DNA of 38,227 bases from an uncultured Pirellulaceae bacterium. GTDB lineage: Bacteria; Planctomycetota; Planctomycetia; Pirellulales; Pirellulaceae. The notes beneath the pieces are model-generated. The model searched no databases, had not been told where the DNA came from, and worked only from the letters and a program-made list of their open reading frames with translations. Numbering within the stretch: position 1 is the first letter of the stretch; every line of letters begins with the position of its first letter. The stretch lies in the NCBI GenBank assembly GCA_937929805.1, contig CALFUT010000054.1, positions 1 through 38,227 on the forward strand, in the 5' to 3' direction. The position numbers and the translations under genes are program-made. Shown here in pieces: positions 13,948-26,469 of the stretch.

Positions 13948-14955
13948 ATGACCGACCAACATGAGTTTCAGCAGCAGGCTGATAAATTCCGCGAACGCTA
14001 CGAAGCAATCCGAGCCGAGATCGGCAAAGTGATTGTTGGCCATGATGAAATCGTGCATGGCGTGCTGACGTGCCTGATGATCGGCGGTCATTGCCTTCTG
14101 GAAGGTGCTCCCGGGTTGGGAAAAACGCTGCTGGTCCAGACGCTGTCCAAGACGCTCAGCCTTGATTCGAATCGGATTCAGTTTACGCCTGATCTGATGC
14201 CGGCCGACATTCTTGGTACCAATATGGTCGTCGAGGATCAAAACGGAAATCGTTCGTTTGAGTTTCAGAAAGGTCCGATCTTCACTCAGATCTGCCTCGC
14301 TGATGAAATCAACCGCGCGACGCCAAAGACGCAGTCGGCCATGCTGGAGACAATGCAGGAAGGCACCGTCACCGTTGGAGGCACTCGGTACGAACTACAG
14401 AAGCCGTTCTTCGTGTTGGCGACGCAAAACCCGATCGAGCAGGAAGGAACCTACCCGCTGCCGGAAGCTCAGCTGGATCGATTCTTATTCAAATTGGTCG
14501 TCGGGTACTCCAACCGCGAGGAGCTTTCGGAAATTTTGGATCGAACGACTCGAGGAGTAAAAATCGAACCTCAGCCGGTGATGGATGGAGCGGAGATCAT
14601 TGAGTGGCAGAAGTTGATCCGGGAGGTGATTCTTGCCGACCATCTTCGTGACTACATCGTTCGTTTAACGCTTGCGACTCATCCTGAGGGACCGCACGCG
14701 GTTGATATCACGAATCAATATCTGCGATGGGGCGCCAGTCCGCGGGGAGCTCAGACGATGGCGTTGGCGGCGAAGGTGCGGGCGTTGTTGGAAGGGCGGT
14801 TCAATGTCAGCTTCGAAGATATTCGACGCGTTTACCTTCCCGCGATGCGGCACCGAGTCATTCCGAACTTTGAGGCCCAAGCGGAGAACGTGACGAGTGA
14901 TCAAGTGCTGCTGGAGATTCTAGATCGCGTCCCTGAGAAAGCAGACGATGCCTGA
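13948..14955 (+). CDS. MoxR-family AAA+ ATPase
   Basis: This 335-aa cytoplasmic ATPase shows the full AAA+ set: Walker A GAPGLGKT (53-60), Walker B ICLADE (115-120) followed by INRATPKTQSAMLETMQE, sensor 1 ATQNPIEQEGTYPLPEAQLDR (158-178) with Asn161 and a candidate arginine finger at Arg178. Its C-terminal lid (about 215-325) includes RWGASPRGAQ, a typical sensor 2 region. MoxR ATPases act as chaperones that activate or assemble partner proteins, usually VWA-domain proteins encoded next door. That arrangement is seen here: the 3-prime end overlaps the DUF58 gene by 8 bp, so the two are translationally coupled. Confidence 0.96.
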   Translation: MTDQHEFQQQADKFRERYEAIRAEIGKVIVGHDEIVHGVLTCLMIGGHCLLEGAPGLGKTLLVQTLSKTLSLDSNRIQFTPDLMPADILGTNMVVEDQNGNRSFEFQKGPIFTQICLADEINRATPKTQSAMLETMQEGTVTVGGTRYELQKPFFVLATQNPIEQEGTYPLPEAQLDRFLFKLVVGYSNREELSEILDRTTRGVKIEPQPVMDGAEIIEWQKLIREVILADHLRDYIVRLTLATHPEGPHAVDITNQYLRWGASPRGAQTMALAAKVRALLEGRFNVSFEDIRRVYLPAMRHRVIPNFEAQAENVTSDQVLLEILDRVPEKADDA

Positions 14956-15859
14956 AAATCCGTTGCCGTTAAAATCGGCGGCCAACGATTTGCTGCCTCC
15001 TTCGCTACTGGCGAAGCTGGACAGGATGGAGTTGGTCAGCCGCAAGATTTTCCGTGGCCGCATGAAGGGCGAACGTCGCAGCGTGCGCAAGGGGCAGAGT
15101 GTTGAGTTTGCAGATTTTCGCAACTATGTTCCGGGCGATGACCTGCGGTTCGTCGATTGGAATCTGTACGCCAGGTTGGACAAGCTGTTTCTGAAGCTAT
15201 TCCTTGAAGAGGAAGACTTGCACTTCTATACGTTGATCGATGTCAGCGAGTCGATGAACTTTGGGACGCCCAGCAAGCTGCAATACGCCAAGCAACTGGC
15301 CGCGGCGTTGGGCTATATTGGATTGTGCCGTAGCGACCGAATCAAGATCGAGCCACTCGACCCCGTCGTCGCGCCCTCAGCGCCGGTGCTACGTGGGCGC
15401 GGGCAAGTGTGGCAGATGCTTGAGTACCTGAATCAGTTGAAGTCCTCGGCCAATGTACCACTGGCTGATTGCGTGAAAAATTTTTGCTCGCGCAACACGG
15501 GAAAAGGCGTGCTGGTTTTGATCACCGACTTGATGGATAAGTCCGGGTATGAAACGGCTCTTAAATACTTGGTAGCCAGAAATTTGGACATCTACGTGAT
15601 TCACGTTCTCTCGCAGGAAGAAATTGATCCGGATATCCAAGGAGATTTGAAGCTGGTCGACTGCGAAGATAGTGATATCGCCGAAATTTCGGTCAGCCAG
15701 AGGTTGCTTGACCGATACCGCCGAACCTTGGCGACGTACATCGAGCAAGCACGCGATTTTTGCTCGCGACGAGGCATCGTTTACACAATGACCAGCACCG
15801 AAAGGTCGGTTGATCGACTAGTTTCACGCTATCTTCGACAACGAGGATTGGTGCGTTGA
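14948..15859 (+). CDS. DUF58 protein with VWA-like domain
   Basis: The 303-aa protein carries the DUF58 signature RNYVPGDDLRFVDWNLYAR (58-75 region) and a following VWA-like domain with a complete metal site DVSES (Asp98, Ser100, Ser102). There is no membrane segment, so it is probably a cytoplasmic or peripheral partner. It starts inside the end of moxR (8-bp overlap) and ends with a 4-bp overlap with the next VWA gene, which marks a tight operon. In characterised systems DUF58 proteins are partners of MoxR ATPases, but their exact role is poorly defined. The ATG at 14948 fits the N terminus expected for the family. Confidence 0.94.
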   Translation: MPENPLPLKSAANDLLPPSLLAKLDRMELVSRKIFRGRMKGERRSVRKGQSVEFADFRNYVPGDDLRFVDWNLYARLDKLFLKLFLEEEDLHFYTLIDVSESMNFGTPSKLQYAKQLAAALGYIGLCRSDRIKIEPLDPVVAPSAPVLRGRGQVWQMLEYLNQLKSSANVPLADCVKNFCSRNTGKGVLVLITDLMDKSGYETALKYLVARNLDIYVIHVLSQEEIDPDIQGDLKLVDCEDSDIAEISVSQRLLDRYRRTLATYIEQARDFCSRRGIVYTMTSTERSVDRLVSRYLRQRGLVR

Positions 15860-17865
15860 ACTTTCTCGACTTCAGCACAATTCCTTGGTATCAGTGGCTG
15901 ATTTTGGCTGTCGTGCCACCGTTGATTTTTCTGCTGTACTTTTTGAAACTGCGACGGTCGCCGTTGCAGGTTCCCAGTACCTTTTTGTGGACTCGAACGA
16001 TCGAGGACATGCATGTGAACAGCCTCTGGCAGCGGCTGAGGAATAACCTGTTGCTGCTGTTGCAATTGCTTGCTGTCTTGCTGCTGTTGCTGTCGTGTCT
16101 GCGTCCGGGTTGTCGCAGTGAAGAATTGGCCGGCGATCGATTCGTTTTTGTGGTGGATCAGTCGGCCAGCATGTCAGCCAAGGATACTCCGTCGAAGGGT
16201 AGTCGATTGGACGAAGCAAAACGGCTTGTGAAGGAGACGATCGACCGCATGAGTGGCAGCGATGCCGCGATGTTGATTAGTTTCTCGGATCGAGCGATTG
16301 TGCAACAGTCGTACACCACCAATCGTTCGTTGCTCAAAAGAAAAGTGGATCAGATTCAGCAGACCGAACGATCGAGCGATATCTCCGAAGCGTTGACCGC
16401 GGCGTCCGGGTTGGCGAATCCGGGGCGAACGAGTGACCGAGAAAGTCAGATTGATATGCAGGTCGCAGAAGGCCGAGATGCCGTTTTGCAGATTTATAGT
16501 GATGGCGGAGTGAAAGAGGTGCCCCGTTTTTCCTTTGGGAAATTGACGGCCCAGTATTTTCCGATTGGATCTTTTGAGGTGCCGCCCAACGTTGGAATTA
16601 CGGCATTTTCGTTGAACAACCAGTTGGAAAGCGATGGGCAGATCGAAGCTTTCACTCGATTGCAAAATTCTGGCATGGAGGACGCGGAAGTCGATCTCTC
16701 GCTGTTTGTCGATGACGAACTGTTTGATGCTCGGGCAGGAGTGAAAGTGGCGGGGCTCAGTTCGACCAGTATCAGTTTCGATTTGTCTGGCTTTGCCGGG
16801 CGAGTCGATCAGGCGATCCCGATTCGCGTCCAGATCGATTCCGCAGATGTTTACGCGTTCGATAACGTGGCTCATTGCGTGCTCAATCCGCCTCGGCTTT
16901 CGAATGTTTTGATCGTTAGCGAAGATCAGAAGTACTTAGAACTTGCGGCTCGAACGGACCGAGTCAAAAAGTTGGCCAACGTTCAATTTGAGTCCCCCGA
17001 TTTTTTGAAGAACCCTGACTACGAAAAGCAAACGACGCTCGGCTTCTTTGACCTGATCGTGTTTGATCAATGTGCCCCAGAGAAAATGCCTCCGTGCAAC
17101 GCGGTTTTCTGGGGCTCGTTGCCGATGGACGAACGATGGTCGAAGACCGGTCAATCGAGCGTGACGCCGATCGTGGACGTGAACAACGCTCATCCGCTAA
17201 TGCAAGCGGTGCAAATGACGACCGTGAACGTGCTGGCCAGTGACATGATCGAGGGTCCAACGGGTAGCGTGTCGCTGGTCGACTCGATTGAAGGTTCGGT
17301 GATGACACTTGCCCCTCGCAGTGGGTTCCTTGATCTGGTCATCGGGTTTCCATTGATTCAGTATGACGAATCGGGTGACGCCAGCGTGAATACCGATTGG
17401 CCTCGGAAACTTGGATTCCCGATCTTCATGCAAAACCTGTTTGTCACTCTTGGAGGTCAATCGCAGTTTGGTCAATCGTTCAATCGCAAACCGGGGCAGT
17501 TGATGAATTTTCGTTCTCGACTGCCATATCCAAAAGTTAGTGTGACAACGCCGACTGGTAAAACAGAAACGGTATCCGCTCGTGCTGACAACTCATTCGT
17601 GTTCGTTGATACGGAGGCCTCCGGGGTTTACGAAATCCGTCCTCAGGGAGAGCAAGAGATCGATCAGTTAGTTGCCGTGAACCTACTTGACCGGCGAGAA
17701 AGCGATCTGGCGGTCGCTGAGAAGATGGAGTTGGGCTACGTTGAGATTGAAGGGACTCGAGCACGCGTTCCCGCGAGGCGTGAGTACTGGCCTTGGCTGG
17801 TATGCCTTGCGATTGTCGTGTTGATGATCGAGTGGCTGATTTACAACCGCCGCGTACTGATCTAA
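15856..17865 (+). CDS. BatA-like VWA-domain membrane protein
   Basis: This 669-aa protein has an N-terminal membrane helix (about 13-31) followed by KLRRSPLQVPSTFLW, matching the BatA/aerotolerance-regulator N-terminal domain, a second helix (about 64-82), and a VWA domain with metal motif DQSAS (Asp101, Ser103, Ser105). The long periplasmic part ends in a membrane helix (WPWLVCLAIVVLMIEWLIY, about 641-659) and a basic tail. No ATG fits the conserved N terminus; the start is the TTG at 15856, which overlaps the DUF58 stop as TTGA. It is the last gene of the moxR operon. A role as the envelope partner remodelled by MoxR is inferred from family context. Confidence 0.92.
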   Translation: MNFLDFSTIPWYQWLILAVVPPLIFLLYFLKLRRSPLQVPSTFLWTRTIEDMHVNSLWQRLRNNLLLLLQLLAVLLLLLSCLRPGCRSEELAGDRFVFVVDQSASMSAKDTPSKGSRLDEAKRLVKETIDRMSGSDAAMLISFSDRAIVQQSYTTNRSLLKRKVDQIQQTERSSDISEALTAASGLANPGRTSDRESQIDMQVAEGRDAVLQIYSDGGVKEVPRFSFGKLTAQYFPIGSFEVPPNVGITAFSLNNQLESDGQIEAFTRLQNSGMEDAEVDLSLFVDDELFDARAGVKVAGLSSTSISFDLSGFAGRVDQAIPIRVQIDSADVYAFDNVAHCVLNPPRLSNVLIVSEDQKYLELAARTDRVKKLANVQFESPDFLKNPDYEKQTTLGFFDLIVFDQCAPEKMPPCNAVFWGSLPMDERWSKTGQSSVTPIVDVNNAHPLMQAVQMTTVNVLASDMIEGPTGSVSLVDSIEGSVMTLAPRSGFLDLVIGFPLIQYDESGDASVNTDWPRKLGFPIFMQNLFVTLGGQSQFGQSFNRKPGQLMNFRSRLPYPKVSVTTPTGKTETVSARADNSFVFVDTEASGVYEIRPQGEQEIDQLVAVNLLDRRESDLAVAEKMELGYVEIEGTRARVPARREYWPWLVCLAIVVLMIEWLIYNRRVLI

Positions 17866-18209: not shown

Positions 18210-19103
18210 TTAAGATCGGCGTCGCCGTGCCGCCAATCCAATCAAGGCAAGCAGCATTCCCGATGCGGTTCCCGGCTCAGGAATGGCTGGCGTCGGTACC
18301 ACTGCTTGGAAAGCTACATTCGTACGCGTGTAGCGTTGATCGATCCCGTTCACATCTCCGTTGGTCGTTTGGTTACTGCGGTCAGAAAATGAGAACTCAT
18401 AGGTTCCAACAATATCCTGCAGCGTTAAGGCGTTCCCTGCACCATCGGTACCAAAGGCCGAAAGCAGACTGACCTGCCCGTTGTTAGCACCGGTTGCGGC
18501 GTAAACTGGAATTCCTGTGCCTGCCGAGTTCAATACTGGCACCACGTCACCATCCGGCGTATTTGTAGCCACGTCGAACAATGAATCGCCACCGTCTTGA
18601 AATCGGTAAGATCCAGAGAAGTTCGAGGTGGCTCCGATGCCATCAATGTTTTGGTTATCAACGATGCCATTTGCCCCAGTGTCGGAACCACCGTCCGTGA
18701 TACCGACTCGTTCAAACAAAGTCGCTGCACGAGTGATGCCGGCGTTTGCCCCAGTGCCGGCATAATCCACTCGAACCGTCAAATCACTTGCGTGGCTGTG
18801 AGTCAATCCTTCAATGGTGAAAAAGACATCGACGATGTTCCCGCCATTGTCAATCGCATCAACATCGCTATCAGTAATCGTGACCGTGCTGAAGATGGTG
18901 TTTTGAAGGTTGGTCAGGTTCGGATCGAAATCTGGAATCGCGACCGTCGAACCGATAGGATTTCCAAATTCGTTATTAGTTGGATCGCCGTTGGAATCGT
19001 CACTGTTTGTAGCGATAAATCCAGATTGAGCGTTCGTGTGACCTGAAATTGCAACGGTCAGTAGAATCATCGCAGCGACAGAGAGTGCGTTTTGTCTAAT
19101 CAT
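18210..19103 (-). CDS. PEP-CTERM secreted protein with P-domain-like fold, copy A
   Basis: This 297-aa protein has a signal peptide (about 8-25, ending NAQ) and a C-terminal sorting signal PAIPEPGTASGMLLALIGLAARRRR-type: PEP motif, hydrophobic helix and Arg cluster. Such signals are processed by exosortase in the envelope; no exosortase is encoded here. The middle contains DVFFTIEGLTHSHASDLTV with downstream ATLFERVG, which resembles the beta-rich proprotein-convertase P domain. The frame is open to a TTG at 19112, but the ATG at 19103 aligns with the paralogue start and is preceded by GGAG and GAGGATTGG. It is paralogous to the gene at 19639-20523 across nearly the whole length. Function is unknown, probably extracellular structural or adhesive. 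Confidence 0.9.
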   Translation of the reverse strand: MIRQNALSVAAMILLTVAISGHTNAQSGFIATNSDDSNGDPTNNEFGNPIGSTVAIPDFDPNLTNLQNTIFSTVTITDSDVDAIDNGGNIVDVFFTIEGLTHSHASDLTVRVDYAGTGANAGITRAATLFERVGITDGGSDTGANGIVDNQNIDGIGATSNFSGSYRFQDGGDSLFDVATNTPDGDVVPVLNSAGTGIPVYAATGANNGQVSLLSAFGTDGAGNALTLQDIVGTYEFSFSDRSNQTTNGDVNGIDQRYTRTNVAFQAVVPTPAIPEPGTASGMLLALIGLAARRRRS

Positions 19104-19638
19104 TAGCTCCAATCCTCATTCAAAAAGGCCAAGGCAGGTGGCTCGCTGTAGGAGACGAGCGTCCACGGCAGGTAAAGGGGCTTGCTGTATAGCTTCCCGA
19201 GGCCGCCCATCTTAACGTGCTGCTCGAGGTTGGACAATCCACCGAACAAGTACTACACCAAGGATTGATTTTGGAGCAGGCTTTTTTATTGCAAGCTTCG
19301 TTCTGGCCTCATTTTCGTCAAGAATTCGACATAACACCCTCAACTTCAACCCCGCTTTGATTGAATGAATCGCTTGAGCGTTAATCAGGTTTCTAGGCCA
19401 GTGGCAGCGCCTGATCGGCTCGAGTTCAAAGACTAAATCAATGCGGCAAGCAGGACGCAGCTTCCCTACCCTATTTGGTTCCGAAGCTTGTCCTTATTCG
19501 GTGGCTCCGAAAGCAGTCGCAAACACAAGCCAATCGCAAACCGGACAAGCGCATGCAAAAAGCACGGAGAGAAATGTTCTCCGTGCTTTTGTGTTTGTCT
19601 ATCACGCGAAACGCTAAGCGAATGCTATGCGGATCCAA
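19104..19638. other. Intergenic region between the tandem PEP-CTERM genes
   Basis: About 535 bp hold the promoter of copy A and the terminator of copy B (19558-19590). No gene with protein character was found; the short plus-strand frame at 19488-19721 runs across the terminator and into copy B. Confidence 0.5.
19558..19590. terminator. Intrinsic terminator of the 19639-20523 gene
   Basis: A perfect 13-bp stem, AAAAGCACGGAGA (19558-19570) with TCTCCGTGCTTTT (19578-19590), and a 7-nt loop. The A and T tails on both sides would allow termination on either strand. The core GCACGGAG is shared with the terminator of copy A, so the duplication appears to have included the terminator. Confidence 0.9.
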
Positions 19639-20523
19639 TTAGGCTCGACGACGTCGTGCCGCAAGACCAATCAGACCTAGCAGCATTGCCGAAGCTGTTC
19701 CGGGCTCAGGAATTGCAGTAGTTGCCGCAGTCTGAAACGCGACATTGGTTCGTGTGAAGCTCTGTTGAATCCCATTTACAGCACCGTTGGTGGTCTGGTT
19801 GCTGCGATCAGAGATTGCAAAGGTGTACTCACCGATGATGTCGACCAGCTGCAGTGCGTTGCCGTTACCGTCAGTGGCAAAGGCTGAAAACAAGCCGACT
19901 TGTTGGTCAGTTGCACCTGTCGCTTGATAAATCGGAACGCCTGTGATTGGGTTCAAGACTGGAACAACGGCATTATCGCCTGTGCTTGTTGCGGCTTGGG
20001 CGAACAGCTGTGTACCTCTATCTGCAAATCGGTAACTCCCATTCAAGTTCGCGTTGGATCCAAAACCATCACCATTCTGGTTGTCAACAAAACCGTTGGC
20101 GCCGTTGCCGGAACCACCGTCGAGGATACCAACTCGCTCGAACAAGGTAGCCGTTCGTGTTGCGCTAGAGGCACCTTCGGGTGTGTAGGCCACACTGACA
20201 GTCAAGTCACTTGCGTGACTGTGAGTCAATCCCTCAATTGTGAAAAAGACATCCACGATGTCTTGGCCGTTGTCGTTAACGGCATCTAAGTCATCTTGAG
20301 TGATGGTGACGGTACTGAAAGTAGTGTTTGCGATGTTAACTGCTGGAGCGATGCCGCCCGCCAAGCTTGGGTCAAAGTCCGGAATTGGGTTTACGGCGAA
20401 CGAGCCACTGTTTGCGGGGAGAAATGTCCCGGGCGTCGTAACTTGAGCAATCGCGGAACTTGTCAACGCCACGGATAGCAAAAGCATCGCACCGTAAACG
20501 AACACTCGTTGTCTTATTATCAT
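19639..20523 (-). CDS. PEP-CTERM secreted protein with P-domain-like fold, copy B
   Basis: This 294-aa protein is a paralogue of copy A. It shares IPDFDP, FSTVTIT, DVFFTIEGLTHSHASDLTV, ATLFERVG, VDNQN, GSYRF and DRSNQTTNG, and ends in the same AIPEPGTASAMLLGLIGLAARRRR-type sorting signal. A signal peptide (about 5-26, AIAQ) is visible. The open frame extends to 20661, but the ATG at 20523 is preceded by AAAGGA with 7-nt spacing and starts the signal peptide, so 20523 is the chosen start. Each copy has its own terminator, so they are separate transcription units. Surface localisation is inferred from the sorting signal. Confidence 0.92.
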   Translation of the reverse strand: MIIRQRVFVYGAMLLLSVALTSSAIAQVTTPGTFLPANSGSFAVNPIPDFDPSLAGGIAPAVNIANTTFSTVTITQDDLDAVNDNGQDIVDVFFTIEGLTHSHASDLTVSVAYTPEGASSATRTATLFERVGILDGGSGNGANGFVDNQNGDGFGSNANLNGSYRFADRGTQLFAQAATSTGDNAVVPVLNPITGVPIYQATGATDQQVGLFSAFATDGNGNALQLVDIIGEYTFAISDRSNQTTNGAVNGIQQSFTRTNVAFQTAATTAIPEPGTASAMLLGLIGLAARRRRA

Positions 20524-20849
20524 TGTCAATCCTTTAAGTAAAACGGCTGCTGTAAGCTGCTCGTGTGGTCGAGCGAACAGATCAGAAAGCGAGAAGCGAT
20601 ATAGGTAAGATTTTCTGATGCGCAAATTACCACGTCGGCCAAAGCTAGGCAATCCGTACATTCAAAATTTTCTGAACCGGTTACACGGGCGACAGCGTCT
20701 TCCCAATCTGCAAAGTTTATCGAGTTTTCAAGCGTGCCCCCACAGTAAAAATTTGGAAGAGTCAAATCTCGGCGATGTTTTAATTGATTCGATGAATTGA
20801 ATTTACTCGATTGCCGATTTTTCGTTGTGATTTCCGACGTTTCAAGCAG
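20524..20849. other. Intergenic region upstream of PEP-CTERM copy B
   Basis: This 326-bp stretch lies between the ketosynthase-like gene and copy B on the same strand and should contain the end of the first transcript and the promoter of the second. Short frames on both strands have no protein character. A ribosome-binding site AAAGGA lies just before 20523. Confidence 0.45.
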
Positions 20850-22112
20850 CTATTTCGCAACAACCAACGATGTAAACTGGCCCATGGAGGAAATGGAAGA
20901 CTTCACTACATACTGCTTGTTACAGTCGAGGTTGGTTGAGCTTGGGAGGACTGCGCAGTTTGGGTCGAGTTCGTTGAAGTTCAATGTAGCGGGGATCGTT
21001 TTGTTTTGCATGCTCAAGATGCCCGCGATGAGCTCGACCAGCGAGGTTCCCGGCCCCAAATTTCCAAAGTTCCCTTTGTTAGCCGAGACGATGCACTCAC
21101 CAAACACTGCGTTCAACGCTTTGGCTTCGATGGAATCCCCTTCAACGCTTCCCGTGGCATTCGCGTTAACGAACCCTATTTCAGAAGGCTTCAAATTGGC
21201 ACGTTGAATTGACTCGTGAAGGCAGGCCTCGAATGCGGCTCCAAATACATCGCTGCCCACGCTGGCGTAGCCACTTGAATGCCCCAAAATCCGAGCAATC
21301 ACATCAGCGCCTCGCGCTTTCGCGTGTTCTTCACTTTCGATGACGATCGCACCCGCCCCTTCGCCAACAACCATTCCGTCGCGATTGCGATCGAAGGGGC
21401 GGCACGCTGCTTCTGGGTTGTGAATGTTTTTGCTTAGGTTGTCGACACCATGGTACAGCATTGAAGTGAGCGCCATCTGGGATCCGGTACCTCCGACGAT
21501 GGCGACATCGACCGTCCCGCGTTGAATCAGGTTAGCGGCTTCGATCAGCGCGAGCATTGAAGATGCCTCTCCTTGGCAAATACTGTTGCTGGGGCCACGA
21601 GCATCAAGCGCAATTGAAATATGAGAAGCCGCCATATTGGGCAAATACTTCAACATCCATAAGGGTTGGATCTCCCTGATCGCAAGCTCGCCCCATCGGT
21701 CGTGCTGATAGTCCTTGTCAACAGTGCAGCGATGAAACACGTCGGCGACCTCACACGGATCGGCAAAAAACGTTTCTGTTCCCACAACCGTTCCGATGCG
21801 GTTGGGGTCGATGTTTCGATCCTCGCCAGCCTGAATTCCGGCTTGTTCGACCGCCATTGACGCCGCCGCACAAGCGAACTTGATCGGATCGCACATGATC
21901 TTGAGTGCTTTGCGAGGCTTGACGTACTGTTTGGGCTCGAACCCAACAACGGGAGCCGCAATCCGAAACGGTAGTTCGGTATCGGCGAACTGTTCTCTGA
22001 CTCGCACACCACTGACGCCGCCTACGAGCGATTCCCAAAACGGCTCGATCCCGATCCCGATGGGGGAAACGACGCCAAGTCCCGTGATAACTACGTCCGA
22101 ATCGGGTTTCAT
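20850..22112 (-). CDS. Beta-ketoacyl-ACP synthase-fold protein lacking the catalytic triad
   Basis: The 420-aa protein is a full-length thiolase-fold ketosynthase of the FabF/KAS II type: VVITGLGVVSPIG (7-19), GTVVGTETFF, NMAASHISIALDARGPS (159-175), AIVGGTGS (204-211), RPFDRNRDGMVVGEGAGAIVIE (238-259). FabF enzymes condense acyl chains with malonyl-ACP using Cys-His-His. Here the Cys position in GPSNSICQGEASS is Glu182, the first His (NAHGT) is Asn318 in NANAT and the second (GH) is Asn351 in FGNLGPG; Lys346 is kept. The protein is therefore unlikely to condense and resembles chain-length-factor or decarboxylating KSQ subunits, where Cys is Gln. It lies 54 bp after the GNAT-like gene on the same strand. 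Start at the ATG at 22112. Confidence 0.92.
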   Translation of the reverse strand: MKPDSDVVITGLGVVSPIGIGIEPFWESLVGGVSGVRVREQFADTELPFRIAAPVVGFEPKQYVKPRKALKIMCDPIKFACAAASMAVEQAGIQAGEDRNIDPNRIGTVVGTETFFADPCEVADVFHRCTVDKDYQHDRWGELAIREIQPLWMLKYLPNMAASHISIALDARGPSNSICQGEASSMLALIEAANLIQRGTVDVAIVGGTGSQMALTSMLYHGVDNLSKNIHNPEAACRPFDRNRDGMVVGEGAGAIVIESEEHAKARGADVIARILGHSSGYASVGSDVFGAAFEACLHESIQRANLKPSEIGFVNANATGSVEGDSIEAKALNAVFGECIVSANKGNFGNLGPGTSLVELIAGILSMQNKTIPATLNFNELDPNCAVLPSSTNLDCNKQYVVKSSISSMGQFTSLVVAK

Positions 22113-22166: not shown

Positions 22167-23300
22167 TTATGACGGTTCGTAGTCAAAGATTCGATAGGTC
22201 TTGATCAACTTTGCGCCACCTCGTTCGAGCGTGCCTCGCGAAAGCTTGTTGGACTCAAGCACCCAAGAAAATTCGGCTTCGGTGATCCCCCATTTTCTCA
22301 CCTCGGGCACCAGCCGCTTCATCAGCACAATCCCCAGTCCCCATCGCTGGTACTCGGGGACCACGTTGGTGCTAATCAGGCGAACTTTTTTGATTTTTTT
22401 ACGTCCAAAAAGAATCCGTAGGAAACCAAACGGGAAAAGTTTTCCGTCAATTTTTTTGATGATGGGATTGTAGTCAAGCAAGCCGAAAACGGTCGCAACA
22501 GGTTTGCCCTCAATCTCTGCCATCGTGGTCATCTCCGGCGTGATCAGCATCTTCAGGCCCTTAGCCGATTCGCGAAGTTCGCTTTCGGACATGGGAGTGA
22601 ACCCCCATTGGCCGGGGAGCGAGCGGTTGTAAATTTCCAGAAAGCTATTCACGTCCTGATCGAAATTTTGCTTGCTAATGGGCCTGACTTTTACGTTGAA
22701 ACGTCGTTCGGCTTCATCCGCGATGAAGGCCATTTTCGGATCGAGATTATCCAGTTCCTCCACGACCCCCAGAAAAGCATACAAGTCTTGTGACTTGAAG
22801 AAGCCGTAATCGGTAATCAGGTTGCCGTAATACGGTTTGTTGTAGGTCATCATGAAGGTCGGAGGTTGATCGAACCCATCAACCAGCAGTCCCCACTCAT
22901 AATTCTGAGACGGGTTGGCCGGGCCTCGCATTTTTGTGATGCCTCGTTCTGCCAACCAGTTTCGAGCTGAATCAAACAACGCGTTCGCCGTGGCTTGATC
23001 ATCAACGCACTCGAAAAAGCCGAACATCCCGCGCTGCTCGTCATGGTACTCGTTGTGAGCCCGGTCGACGATCGCAGCAATACGTCCGACAACGACTCCG
23101 TCTTGCTTAGCCAGAAACGTCTGGATCTCTGCGCGATCGTAAAATGGATGAGGGCGATAATTCAACAGCTCGCGAATGTTCATCCGGATTGGCGGGATCC
23201 AGTGTGGGTCTCCACGATAGTGAGTCCACGCGAACTGGATGAAGGCTTTTTGGTCAGCCTTTGTCTGGACGGGCGAAACGGTGACGGATTTAGAATTCAT
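22167..23300 (-). CDS. Large GNAT-like acyl-CoA N-acyltransferase family protein
   Basis: The 377-aa protein belongs to a widespread family of large GNAT-like proteins with DPHWIPPIR, FLAKQDGVVVGRIAAIVD, GMFGFFECVDD, WLAERGITKMRGPANPSQN and PPTFMMTYNKPYYGNL in the N-terminal half. The C-terminal half carries a canonical GNAT acyl-CoA loop, VVPEYQRWGLGIVLM (about 313-327). Members of related families make bacterial ceramides, but I cannot assign this one to that reaction. The frame is open to 23498, but the ATG at 23300 starts the conserved region and gives the expected family length of about 380 aa. No membrane segment is seen. It is likely cotranscribed with the ketosynthase-fold gene. Confidence 0.85.
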   Translation of the reverse strand: MNSKSVTVSPVQTKADQKAFIQFAWTHYRGDPHWIPPIRMNIRELLNYRPHPFYDRAEIQTFLAKQDGVVVGRIAAIVDRAHNEYHDEQRGMFGFFECVDDQATANALFDSARNWLAERGITKMRGPANPSQNYEWGLLVDGFDQPPTFMMTYNKPYYGNLITDYGFFKSQDLYAFLGVVEELDNLDPKMAFIADEAERRFNVKVRPISKQNFDQDVNSFLEIYNRSLPGQWGFTPMSESELRESAKGLKMLITPEMTTMAEIEGKPVATVFGLLDYNPIIKKIDGKLFPFGFLRILFGRKKIKKVRLISTNVVPEYQRWGLGIVLMKRLVPEVRKWGITEAEFSWVLESNKLSRGTLERGGAKLIKTYRIFDYEPS

Positions 23301-23527
23301 GGACTCAATTTTCAGAAGTCGATAGTTTGGATTCGAGAGGTGAATTAACGCCGAGAACTTTTCAGGTTTGGATTCCCAGTCATGGCCACGTCGGTTCGCA
23401 ATGTTATAGTTTATCGTTCCGCTCGGAGAATCGGCAGTGCGGATTGACTTCTTTTGAGTTATCGCAAGCCCCAATGCGACGCAAACATTGATGAACACGG
23501 ATTGATGAACACGGAGTTGACTCTTTC
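23301..23527. promoter_or_regulatory. Divergent promoter region of the GNAT and SDR genes
   Basis: The 227 bp between divergent starts must contain promoters for both units. The only structure seen is the 14-bp duplication at 23487-23514, just before the SDR start. No promoter consensus could be supported. Confidence 0.4.
23487..23514. repeat. 14-bp tandem duplication
   Basis: ATTGATGAACACGG occurs twice back to back at 23487-23500 and 23501-23514, ending 13 bp before the SDR start codon. Confidence 0.9.
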
Positions 23528-24502
23528 ATGCGAATCTTGCTCACCGGAGCAACCGGGTTTCTTGGAAACCATTTGCTCCAGCAGTTGACCGAAGCCGGCC
23601 ACGAAGTAACCGCCACGCTTCGCCACAGCTCAGATCCGCGTCCTTTGGACGGATGGGACGTCACAAAAGCGATTGTCGATTTGAACGATGCTTCGGAAAT
23701 TGCTCCGCTGGTTGGTCAGCACGATGCGGTTATTCACTCGGCCGCCATGATCCATCTGGGTTGGTCAAAAATTCCAGAAAGTCGGAACGTCAACGTTGGG
23801 GCCACGAAGATTTTGGCTGAGTCAGCGCGGCGGCATGGAATTCGAATGGTCCACGTCAGCACGGTCGACGCATTGGGGCAAGTCGACCCCGACCAGCCGG
23901 GAGACGAGACCAGAACCGAGCCCCCTAAACCCGCGTGCGCGTATGTGGTGTCGAAACGGGAAGCCGAAGCGGTGTTCCTTGATCAGGTGCGAAGTGGTCT
24001 CGATGGAGTCATCGTCAATCCGGGTTTCATGGTCGGGCCACGCGATTGGAAACCCTCGTCGGGCGAGATGTTACTTGCCATCGTCAAGCAGTACATGCCA
24101 CTGGCTCCAGCTGGCGGATGTAGCGTCGCCGATGTGCGAGACGTCGCTTGCGGCATTCGGCTGGCGTTGGATCGTGGAGTCGCCGGGGAACGTTACATTC
24201 TTGGTGGGCATAACGTTACCTATTTGGAGCTATGGACTGAGATGGCGAAGCTTGTCGGGCGTCGACCGCCGATTGGAAAACTCCCGACATGGATCTCAAA
24301 AATTGCTGGCGGCGTGGGCGATTTGGCTGGGCGGTTTACGACCACCGAGCCACAGCTCAATTCGGCGGTGACTGCAATGGGACAGATTCATCACTGGTAC
24401 TCCAGCGACAAGGCGATCGACCAGCTTGGCTACCAGATTAACGATTACTTGCCGGCGCTAGAGGAATCGTGGAAGTGGTTCAAGGAACGAGACTACGCCT
24501 GA
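23528..24502 (+). CDS. NAD(P)-dependent epimerase/reductase, extended SDR family
   Basis: This 324-aa protein is an extended short-chain dehydrogenase of the dihydroflavonol-reductase/sugar-epimerase type. The Rossmann motif GATGFLG (7-13) begins the chain. HVSTVDALG (109-117) carries the Ser/Thr and YVVSK (139-143) the catalytic Tyr-Lys pair. NPGFMVGPRDW (about 168-178) is the typical downstream motif. Related enzymes act on nucleotide sugars, hopanoid-associated sugars, or the 3-keto group of sphingoid bases, so the substrate cannot be fixed. It is divergent from the GNAT/ketosynthase pair, sharing a 227-bp promoter region. The ATG at 23528 starts immediately before the nucleotide-binding motif and is the only plausible start. 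Confidence 0.93.
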   Translation: MRILLTGATGFLGNHLLQQLTEAGHEVTATLRHSSDPRPLDGWDVTKAIVDLNDASEIAPLVGQHDAVIHSAAMIHLGWSKIPESRNVNVGATKILAESARRHGIRMVHVSTVDALGQVDPDQPGDETRTEPPKPACAYVVSKREAEAVFLDQVRSGLDGVIVNPGFMVGPRDWKPSSGEMLLAIVKQYMPLAPAGGCSVADVRDVACGIRLALDRGVAGERYILGGHNVTYLELWTEMAKLVGRRPPIGKLPTWISKIAGGVGDLAGRFTTTEPQLNSAVTAMGQIHHWYSSDKAIDQLGYQINDYLPALEESWKWFKERDYA

Positions 24503-24777
24503 TCGGTGGTTGGTGTGACTCAGTGGTCTGCGATTTCGGATTGAGTCCCCGCCGAGCCAATTAGGGTGCGACGGCTGGTGTTTTCGTGCCGGTTTTGACG
24601 ATCACGTTGGCTCCGCAAGTCTGGTTGCCGTTTGGCCGTCGTTTAAATGGGCACGCATCACAATTTGTTAATCAGGATCTTAGCGGCGACCCGAAAATAA
24701 ATGGACAACGATATCGCGAAAAGCCGCGTAAAGTGGCAAGGCCGGTATTACTTCGATCGTTCCCTTTAGAAGATTCT

Positions 24778-26469
24778 ATGAGCCCAACAGACGCCCAATT
24801 CGTTGGTGTTCGCACTGATTGGCTTCATCTAGTTGATGCTCTTCCGACGCCGGTCTTCGTGAAGAATCGGGAGCAAAAACTGATTGCTGCGAGTGCCTCT
24901 TTCTGCAAGCTTGTTGACTGCGCGCGAGAGTCAATTCTTGGTTTTCAAGATTTTGAAATTCGGCCCGGCGACTATTTGTTTGATTCGAATGCCGAAGTGC
25001 GGACGCTTGAGACGGGCGAGCAGTTTGCATACGAAGTTGGGTTGCCGTCTGATGAAGTTGCGTCCGAACAGGCAGCCAAGCCTTTGAAGATTCGGTTAGG
25101 CCGATGGGTGGATCCCGACGGAAACAAAGTACTGGTTGGTTCTGTTGAGGATCTGACAGAATTGGCCGAAGCGAACGTCTCTTTGAAAGTTGCCCAGCGT
25201 CAATCGCAGTTGGCTTTCACATTTGACACGTTGACCGGACTGCTCAATCGATCTCAGATCAAGCCTTGCATCGACGAGTGCATCGCGACGTCAGAACAAA
25301 GTGGGTTGTCTTTCGCAGTGCTGCTGATCAGTTTGAATCGGTTCAAGGCCGTTAACAATGTTCTAGGGAATCAGGCCGGCGATCGTCTGCTGCAAGTTTG
25401 TGCGCAAAGGATTCACCAAGTCGTGCGAGCTCGGACGGACGTGGCTCGTTCCGGCGGCGATGAATACGTTGTCTTGCTTTCGGAGACCGACCCGTTAAGT
25501 GCAGGCCGAACTGCTGAGCGAATTATCGAGATGATTGGGATGCCGATCGATCTTGACGGTTCGCGTCTAGAAATCTCCAGCAGCGTGGGGATCGCCATGT
25601 ACCCGCGCGATGGTCGAAGCAGCAACGAATTGCTTATTAAGGCGGATCAAGCACTAGCCGAGGGCAAGCGAAAAAAGCCATCCGGCTGCGTGAATTATTT
25701 TGAGCCCTCTATTGGACGCGATGTCGAACGAAAGCTTGCGTTATCGCGCGATCTAGCTCAGGCGGTGGACAACGACCAGATTCAGACTTATTTGCAACCA
25801 ATTGTCCGGCATGAAAGTGGGCAGATTCGAGTCATCGGTTACGAATCGCTTGCTCGTTGGCAACGCGGATCTGGGGAATGGGTTTCGCCTCTAGAGTTTG
25901 TGCCGCTATTGGAAGAATCGGGGCTGATGATCGAAGCGGGCGAAAAGATTCTCAATCGCGCTTGCGGATTTATCGCAACTCGATTGTCAGACGATGTGTA
26001 TGTGTCGGTGAATGTGTCAGGGCAGCAAATCGCCGACGAAGGGTTTTTGGACATGGTTGACCGAGCGGTGCAAACCAGCGGAATTCCTTATCAGCGACTT
26101 GCGTTAGAGGTCACTGAAACGTTAGCGATGAACGATCACTCGACCTGTATCGAGTTGCTCAATCAATTGACCGAACGAGGTATTCGGTTGATGATTGACG
26201 ATTTCGGGACCGGTTATTCAAATCTGGCTAGGCTAAGTGAGTTGCCATTCAGTGTTGTGAAAATTGATCGCAGTCTGATTCGTGACCTGCCCGGCAAACG
26301 CTCTGGTTCGGCGATTCTACGAACGGTGATAAGCATGGCTCGCGAGTTAGAACTGCGATTGGTGGCCGAAGGAATTGAAGAACCAGCCCAGCGAGACTAT
26401 CTGATCGAACTTGGGGTCAACACGTTTCAGGGTTACTTGTTTGGTAAGCCCAAGCCGATGCCAACTTGA
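24778..26469 (+). CDS. PAS-GGDEF-EAL cyclic di-GMP protein
   Basis: The 563-aa protein has a PAS-like sensor (about 18-130), GGDEF domain (about 145-310) and EAL domain (about 325-560), with no membrane segment. The EAL site looks complete: YESLAR (Glu356, ExLxR), NVSGQQ (Asn412), LEVTE (Glu444), DDFGTG (474-479), KID (Lys495), AEGIE (Glu531) and QGYLFGKP. It should hydrolyse c-di-GMP to pGpG. In the GGDEF domain the signature is GGDEY (226-230), but the metal-binding DxD of the DxDxFK motif is Ser185-Leu-Asn187, and the inhibitory RxxD site reads RART. The cyclase is therefore probably inactive. The frame extends to 24586, but the ATG at 24778 after AGAAG starts the recognisable PAS region. 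Confidence 0.93.
   Translation: MSPTDAQFVGVRTDWLHLVDALPTPVFVKNREQKLIAASASFCKLVDCARESILGFQDFEIRPGDYLFDSNAEVRTLETGEQFAYEVGLPSDEVASEQAAKPLKIRLGRWVDPDGNKVLVGSVEDLTELAEANVSLKVAQRQSQLAFTFDTLTGLLNRSQIKPCIDECIATSEQSGLSFAVLLISLNRFKAVNNVLGNQAGDRLLQVCAQRIHQVVRARTDVARSGGDEYVVLLSETDPLSAGRTAERIIEMIGMPIDLDGSRLEISSSVGIAMYPRDGRSSNELLIKADQALAEGKRKKPSGCVNYFEPSIGRDVERKLALSRDLAQAVDNDQIQTYLQPIVRHESGQIRVIGYESLARWQRGSGEWVSPLEFVPLLEESGLMIEAGEKILNRACGFIATRLSDDVYVSVNVSGQQIADEGFLDMVDRAVQTSGIPYQRLALEVTETLAMNDHSTCIELLNQLTERGIRLMIDDFGTGYSNLARLSELPFSVVKIDRSLIRDLPGKRSGSAILRTVISMARELELRLVAEGIEEPAQRDYLIELGVNTFQGYLFGKPKPMPT

Follow-up and report, generated by a model that had tools for sequence, protein, structure and literature searches.

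A cysteine-less ketosynthase paralogue in a Pirellulaceae contig and its possible role as a chain-length-factor-like subunit

What might a ketosynthase (KS) do once its catalytic cysteine and both catalytic histidines have been replaced? The question is raised by a gene in a stretch of 38,227 nucleotides (contig CALFUT010000054.1 of assembly GCA_937929805.1, from an uncultured Pirellulaceae bacterium), to which we refer in full as the window. The gene begins with an ATG at 22112 and has zero internal stops. Its features, with codons counted from that ATG, are as follows.

20850..22112, minus strand: pseudo-ketosynthase (pseudo-KS; KS-beta-like), 420 amino acids (aa), with E182, N318, K346 and N351
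21567..21569, minus strand: codon of Glu182, at the position of the catalytic Cys in the alignment
21627..21665, minus strand: segment 150-162 (PLWMLKYLPNMAA), strongly conserved, net charge +1

A preliminary description of this DNA had proposed that Glu182, Asn318 and Asn351 replace the Cys, first His and second His, that Lys346 is kept and that the frame is intact. Alignment with FabF structures agrees, equating Glu182, Asn318, Lys346 and Asn351 with C163, H303, K335 and H340 of E. coli FabF. The Cys-His-His triad of elongating FabF/KAS II enzymes is absent, and only the lysine is kept. Both ketoacyl-synt domains of Pfam are present (N-terminal, E 9.2e-36; C-terminal, E 2.3e-19), and fabF is the nearest NCBIfam model, at 257 bits against a cut-off of 494. 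An AlphaFold2 model, computed with a 20-sequence alignment as input, has pLDDT 91.3 and pTM 0.91, and its 50 best Foldseek matches in the PDB are of FabF/KAS II type, with TM (query) of 0.86-0.89. The suggestion that the fold motifs remain holds in part, and not for the gating loop. The GFGG of that loop, found in nearly all canonical rows of the alignment, is SMGQ in the window protein and mostly TGQ in its family; a GFGG-like loop is retained in some distant family members that lie in tandem with a second KS.

We searched the genome of origin and 59 relatives, and found a KS-type match in each of the 60. A contig search with patterns from the conserved stretches of the family added 80 loci, out of at least 584 confirmed stretches; every title but one ('bacterium') gives Planctomycetota or a group of it. 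Besides E. coli FabF there were 140 unique KS-type rows, 133 without the Cys and 7 with it. In a later alignment the position holds a carboxylate in 154 of 167 non-Cys rows (Glu 99, Asp 55). Every one of the 40 genomes sampled from the same class has at least one non-Cys member by residue reading; in 28 of these the best match has Glu or Asp (26) or Ser (2). Residues were read because match score alone is no proof of Cys loss, since tandem KS copies with an intact triad in family f33 score up to 256 bits.

Are all three replacements conserved? Within the genus there are 27 rows, from the genome of origin and 26 of 27 others. The remaining genome (G012) is 77% complete and has a match only in the paralogue range. 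The residues at the Cys, His, Lys and His positions are ENKN in 16 rows, ASKN in 5, EHKE in 3, EHKD in 2 and EHKN in 1, so Glu/Asn/Asn is found in 16 of the 27. On a 137-row tree containing 109 pseudo-KS rows, exchange between an acid and another residue at the Cys position requires 6 changes, while loss or retention of the first His requires 20, and the second site (His, Asn or other) 30. Switching between Glu and Asp takes at least 22 changes (82 rows). The carboxylate is therefore conserved and the His sites are relaxed. Glu182 is selected as a carboxylate, while drift at formerly catalytic sites seems to account for both Asn. The replacement had been called complete and specific; that applies to the carboxylate, and not to the His sites. 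Glu/Asn/Asn is one sub-state of a planctomycete family whose conserved feature is the carboxylate. We also considered covariation of Glu with Asn and Asp with His, for which the raw counts are strong (60 EN, 32 DH, 17 DN and 5 EH), and dropped it because phylogenetically independent pairs gave no significant association (median p 0.625 and 0.375).

Comparison with the nearest orthologue gives dN = 0.138 and dS = 1.79, a dN/dS of about 0.08, and five same-genus pairs lie at about 0.04-0.09; dS was saturated in two of three more distant comparisons. These low ratios indicate purifying selection. The window protein is a real, selected, cysteine-less KS paralogue.

The pseudo-KSs form a single clade in each of three trees: 107 rows in the 137-row tree (SH-aLRT 100), 49 rows in a 93-row tree (99) and 38 rows in a tree that includes KS-alpha and chain-length factor (CLF) pairs (99). 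There are no Cys rows inside the clade in any of them. Two non-Cys rows (FDKH and ADKH) from one locus (L200, G261:C107:12000-28000) fall outside it in the 137-row tree. That locus is a fatty-acid-synthase-like cluster with four KSs, two of which lack the Cys, and is reminiscent of divergent Kuenenia paralogues. In family f33 (L199, L206, L207 and L208) there are tandem KS pairs with Cys-His-Lys-His in both copies, and the first gene of these pairs is sister to the pseudo-KS clade in the 93-row tree (support 93) and the CLF tree (support 88); the 137-row and 93-row trees include both genes of each pair. These pairs may possibly represent the stage before the Cys was lost.

A tree with CLFs had been proposed in the preliminary description. 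We added three KS-alpha/CLF pairs from Streptomyces and Pseudonocardia. The three actinobacterial CLFs (QDKR, HDKR and QDKR) group with their own KS-alphas (support 95), and in the best tree the planctomycete clade is separate from them (support 99), although an approximately unbiased test does not reject a common clade (p 0.27). An independent origin of the planctomycete family is favoured by these comparisons, but not established.

Who might be the partner of such a protein? The canonical KSs that lie beside distant pseudo-KSs also form one clade, and this includes a KS encoded in the genome of origin at C2:17189-18493. A search of the genome for a canonical partner had been proposed, and this KS, unlinked from the window gene, is the one found. 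The same partner KS is found at E <= 3e-173 in all 40 of the same-class genomes. We fetched 20 partner-KS loci, all from outside the class. The Cys-His-Lys-His KS is directly preceded by a non-Cys KS in 17; two lack an adjacent pseudo-KS, and in one the contig stops within the neighbouring gene. As 10 of the 20 already had an adjacent family match in our earlier list, the other 10 may be counted separately: 7 are tandem, 2 lack a pseudo-KS and 1 is the truncated case. The 17 tandem pseudo-KSs carry Glu (15), Asn (1) or Gln (1, L240) at the Cys position. FabA-like and acyl carrier protein (ACP) genes adjoin many of the pairs, an ACP being seen in 7 of 17, and the order FabA-like, ACP, FabA-like, pseudo-KS, KS occurs in 7 of the loci. 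The genome of origin has two relevant loci outside the window.

C2, partner operon: FabA-like (190 aa), ACP (129 aa), FabA-like (179 aa), KS (435 aa) and 4HBT thioesterase (137 aa)
G000 C8:142225-143511: second pseudo-KS (E/H/K/N; L054, L008)

We looked for a pseudo-KS in the C2 operon and found none there; the genome has two pseudo-KS genes and one C2-type KS. Relatives of the second pseudo-KS (L054, L055, L056 and L061) share a neighbour that by eye resembles nusA. Elsewhere, a member of the pseudo-KS clade (L204) lies close to FabF, ACP and FabD-like genes.

Since a canonical KS directly follows the pseudo-KS in distant members, and the pseudo-KSs group together with SH-aLRT 99-100, we read the window protein as a CLF-like (KS-beta) subunit of a second planctomycete type II fatty-acid or polyketide system, and consider this, on balance, probable. 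A non-condensing partner subunit had been one of two functions suggested for it, and of these is the better supported. As far as quick trees and gene order go, a FabF-type KS was duplicated in tandem, yielding a pair of neighbours that genes for ACP and FabA-like dehydratases often accompany, and the upstream copy lost its Cys in most lineages, mostly having a carboxylate there. In the genome of origin the canonical operon has stayed on C2, with two KS-beta copies elsewhere, one of them downstream of an N-acyltransferase gene of the YghO family. The window protein would pair with the C2 KS as its non-condensing half. At the interface of the dimer it would cap the acyl tunnel, or shape it, and so set the acyl chain; its buried carboxylate would be structural, not nucleophilic. 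What is shown is the clade, its gene neighbourhood and the tandem arrangement among distant relatives; we infer the heterodimer, its control of chain length and its service to a ceramide synthase.

The charge of segment 150-162 is consistent with such pairing. Of 167 non-Cys rows, 159 have a net charge of +1 there, whereas 36 partner KSs average -1.9 and 9 other KSs +0.8. Glu occurs at 153, 155 and 157 in 29, 25 and 28 of the 36 partner KSs. The segment is also retained in family members that are unlinked from a partner KS. The pattern is compatible with heterodimers in preference to homodimers.

The genes around the pseudo-KS suggest which lipid might be concerned. They are listed here with a further gene of the same genome.

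22167..23300, minus strand: GNAT-fold N-acyltransferase of the YghO/bCerS family, 54 nt upstream of the pseudo-KS gene
23528..24502, plus strand: extended short-chain dehydrogenase/reductase (SDR), HpnA-like but below the cut-off of that model, divergent from the GNAT gene
C3:86065-87309: serine palmitoyltransferase (SPT)/BioF-type gene, adjoining an MMPL gene; a second GNAT is also on C3

The GNAT gene likely starts with the ATG at 23300 (377 aa), the listed open reading frame extending to a GTG at 23498, and is probably co-transcribed with the pseudo-KS gene. Over 384 aa its product shares 34% of residues with E. coli YghO (E 3e-71), and over 376 aa 37% with a GNAT of a Streptomyces plasmid, encoded there in a run of aminotransferase, GNAT and epimerase genes. 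In E. coli, yghO adjoins spt, ACP, epimerase and ligase genes; it is among the genes of dihydroceramide synthesis, with a predicted N-acyltransferase as product (PMC9386255, available part). The neighbouring SDR is a possible 3-keto reductase. It matches the E. coli epimerase weakly (26% over 119 aa), and shares the SDR superfamily with CerR, again with a weak match. The window copy of the KS-beta may tune the chain that the adjoining ceramide-synthase-like GNAT would put on a long-chain base.

How general is this setting? The 133 family loci differ in length; 49 include a YghO-type GNAT, which in 45 is the direct upstream neighbour in the same orientation. SDRs of the family found in the window occur in 33, MMPL transporters in 7 and an SPT-type gene in 1; a fatty-acid desaturase is encoded in 18, divergently upstream in 17. 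The locus with the SPT-type gene (L143, in the region of L099/L103) reads MMPL, SPT-type, GNAT, SDR (reverse), GNAT, pseudo-KS. Among 244 Planctomycetota genomes sampled, 75 have GNAT matches, and in at least 34 of these an SPT-type match stands beside the GNAT (judged by eye, with one gap of about 570 bases); among the matches listed, none of these is in the same class as the genome of origin. The orthologue of the SPT-like protein scores 236-308 bits with three SPT models (cut-offs 500-670). Spt-like proteins have been reported in 138 Planctomycetota metagenome-assembled genomes (MAGs) from the Black Sea (PMC11334938, available part).

Several observations count against a KS-beta role, or against its connection to ceramide. 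The window gene stands apart from the partner KS and its ACP, both of which are encoded on C2, and it has Glu in place of the Gln typical of CLFs. The acid is replaced by Ala in 5 same-genus orthologues and by Ser in 2 genomes of the same family. The trees were quick, calculated without bootstrap and with three trait columns left in, and the 137-row tree draws the intact f33 copies close to its root, on the side of the canonical KSs and not as sister to the pseudo-KS clade. The place of segment 150-162, which matches 131-143 of FabF, at the dimer interface is presumed from FabF structures. The neighbourhood varies, with a GNAT directly upstream in 45 of 133 loci and a divergent desaturase in 17, and the SPT-like orthologue scores best with bioF (317 bits, cut-off 426). 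Lastly, a GNAT match is found in 0 of 28 genomes from other orders of the class (27 of them in family f21). All 28 carry a non-Cys KS, so a link to ceramide is not the general role of the family; G048, from the same order as the genome of origin, likewise has a non-Cys KS and no GNAT match. These 28 genomes weaken the idea that the family as a whole serves sphingolipids alone; only part of it has the ceramide context.

The same unlinked position would suit a stand-alone homodimer that binds acyl-ACP or acyl-CoA and feeds the neighbouring N-acyltransferase, or a desaturase elsewhere, with no condensing partner. Two pseudo-KS genes in a genome with one C2-type KS, and the place of family members beside a GNAT (45 of 133) or divergent desaturase (17 of 133), favour it too. 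Yet the charged segment complementing the partner KSs is retained in unlinked members, distant lineages show the tandem pair, and the window protein has another loop in place of the GFGG gate found in acyl-loading KSs. We regard such a carrier as unlikely. Less likely still is a KS-fold enzyme of new chemistry, with the carboxylate acting as general base in hydrolysis or in handing an acyl group directly to an amine or alcohol. The neighbours are indeed acyl-transfer enzymes, and the acid class is kept (6 changes in 109 rows, as against at least 22 between Glu and Asp in 82), but both His sites vary freely (20 and 30 changes), and the Ala and Ser replacements fall at a position where a catalytic residue would be expected to be under tighter constraint.

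KSQ domains have Gln at the Cys position and require both His. A KSQ-like malonyl decarboxylase that makes a primer would agree with the non-nucleophilic residue at the Cys position and with Lys346. Both His are indispensable for decarboxylation (PMC2649909, available part), however, while both are Asn in the window protein and have been lost repeatedly across the family. The carboxylate should, moreover, repel malonate, and we reject this activity on the His positions as very improbable. A decaying pseudogene, to which the loss of three catalytic residues and the differing His replacements among orthologues might point, we reject with next to no doubt, in keeping with the earlier judgement that this is not random decay, given orthologues with open frames in 26 of the 27 further genomes of the genus, a dN/dS near 0.08 and strongly conserved segments.

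The KS-beta reading can be compared with known systems. CLFs of type II polyketide synthases (PKSs), such as the actinorhodin CLF (PDB 1TQY, chain B), have in common with the family the FabF fold and the loss of Cys. A CLF gene adjoins that of a Cys-His-His KS and has an ACP gene close by, as in distant family members, whereas the window gene is unlinked from its KS. CLFs have Gln or His at the Cys position (Gln, His and Gln in the three fetched), and the family Glu or Asp. The planctomycete KS-beta precedes the KS-alpha, while the fetched CLFs follow it. The ApeO-ApeC pair of aryl polyene synthesis is a heterodimeric KS-CLF in a fatty-acid-synthase-like cluster (PMC8358021, available part); by comparison the window protein is full length. 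Planctomycetes are among the phyla with KS-CLF hits (PMC10132072, available part), and the available parts of two further papers concern KS gating (PMC7138838) and type II PKSs (PMC12664062).

The protein had been thought a distinct type. It does differ from CLFs (Gln/His/Gln) and from KSQ domains, but substitution of the Cys by Asp or Glu is itself not new. In the available part of their paper (PMC2649909), Rattray et al. 2009 tabulate two FabF paralogues of Rhodopirellula baltica, RB4527 with Glu-His-Lys-Asn and RB3714 with Asp-His-Ile-His, and suggest that such proteins may recruit products from outside type II fatty-acid synthesis (FASII); that part gives no operon context, clade or partner for them. 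Both states also occur in the planctomycete family. Among the bacterial ceramide genes (spt, bcerS/yghO and cerR/epi, of Caulobacter and E. coli), yghO has a homologue in the window GNAT gene, an SPT/BioF-type enzyme is encoded in the same genome, and the window SDR is weakly like the E. coli epimerase. The available parts of the papers on these genes (PMC11334938, PMC11087976 and PMC9386255) name no KS subunit.

A broader proposal, which we offer tentatively as doubtful, is that planctomycetes made CLF-like subunits from their own tandem KS duplicate, independently of the actinobacterial CLFs and with a carboxylate in place of Gln, and that in the order of the genome of origin these left the operon and multiplied, so that one condensing KS would have several exchangeable non-catalytic halves, each in a different lipid locus. 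The window copy would then dictate the acyl chain used by the adjoining ceramide synthase. The KS-beta reading provides a testable function for a family that all 40 sampled genomes of the class possess; its unusual active site was already described in 2009, and the literature covered gives it no settled role. Should the reading be right, the two halves of a paired enzyme would have come apart, the silent one being put to new use as an exchangeable specificity factor, and the fatty-acid machinery of planctomycetes would be tied to ceramide-type lipids. Among the titles searched, with most subscription journals outside the coverage, none calls these proteins chain-length factors.

Some further observations were made. 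Chains B and C of PDB 9S5H are two related but different KS-like chains that match the family; a search of the ladderane and anammox literature found no paper on this entry. Contigs titled Candidatus Kuenenia stuttgartiensis (L153, L177, L181, L184 and L186) contain D-type pseudo-KSs like those of other planctomycete MAGs, and the titles may be wrong. Ser-type pseudo-KSs (SHKH and SNKH) occur at L246 and L250 (G148 and G253) and at L156. Within the window, two genes for PEP-CTERM-type proteins lie downstream of the pseudo-KS gene (19639-20661 and 18210-19112, minus strand), consecutive MoxR-type ATPase, DUF58 and BatA/VWA genes occupy 13948-17865 (plus strand), and a gene for a GGDEF-EAL protein with a weak PAS match adjoins that of the SDR (24586-26469, plus strand).
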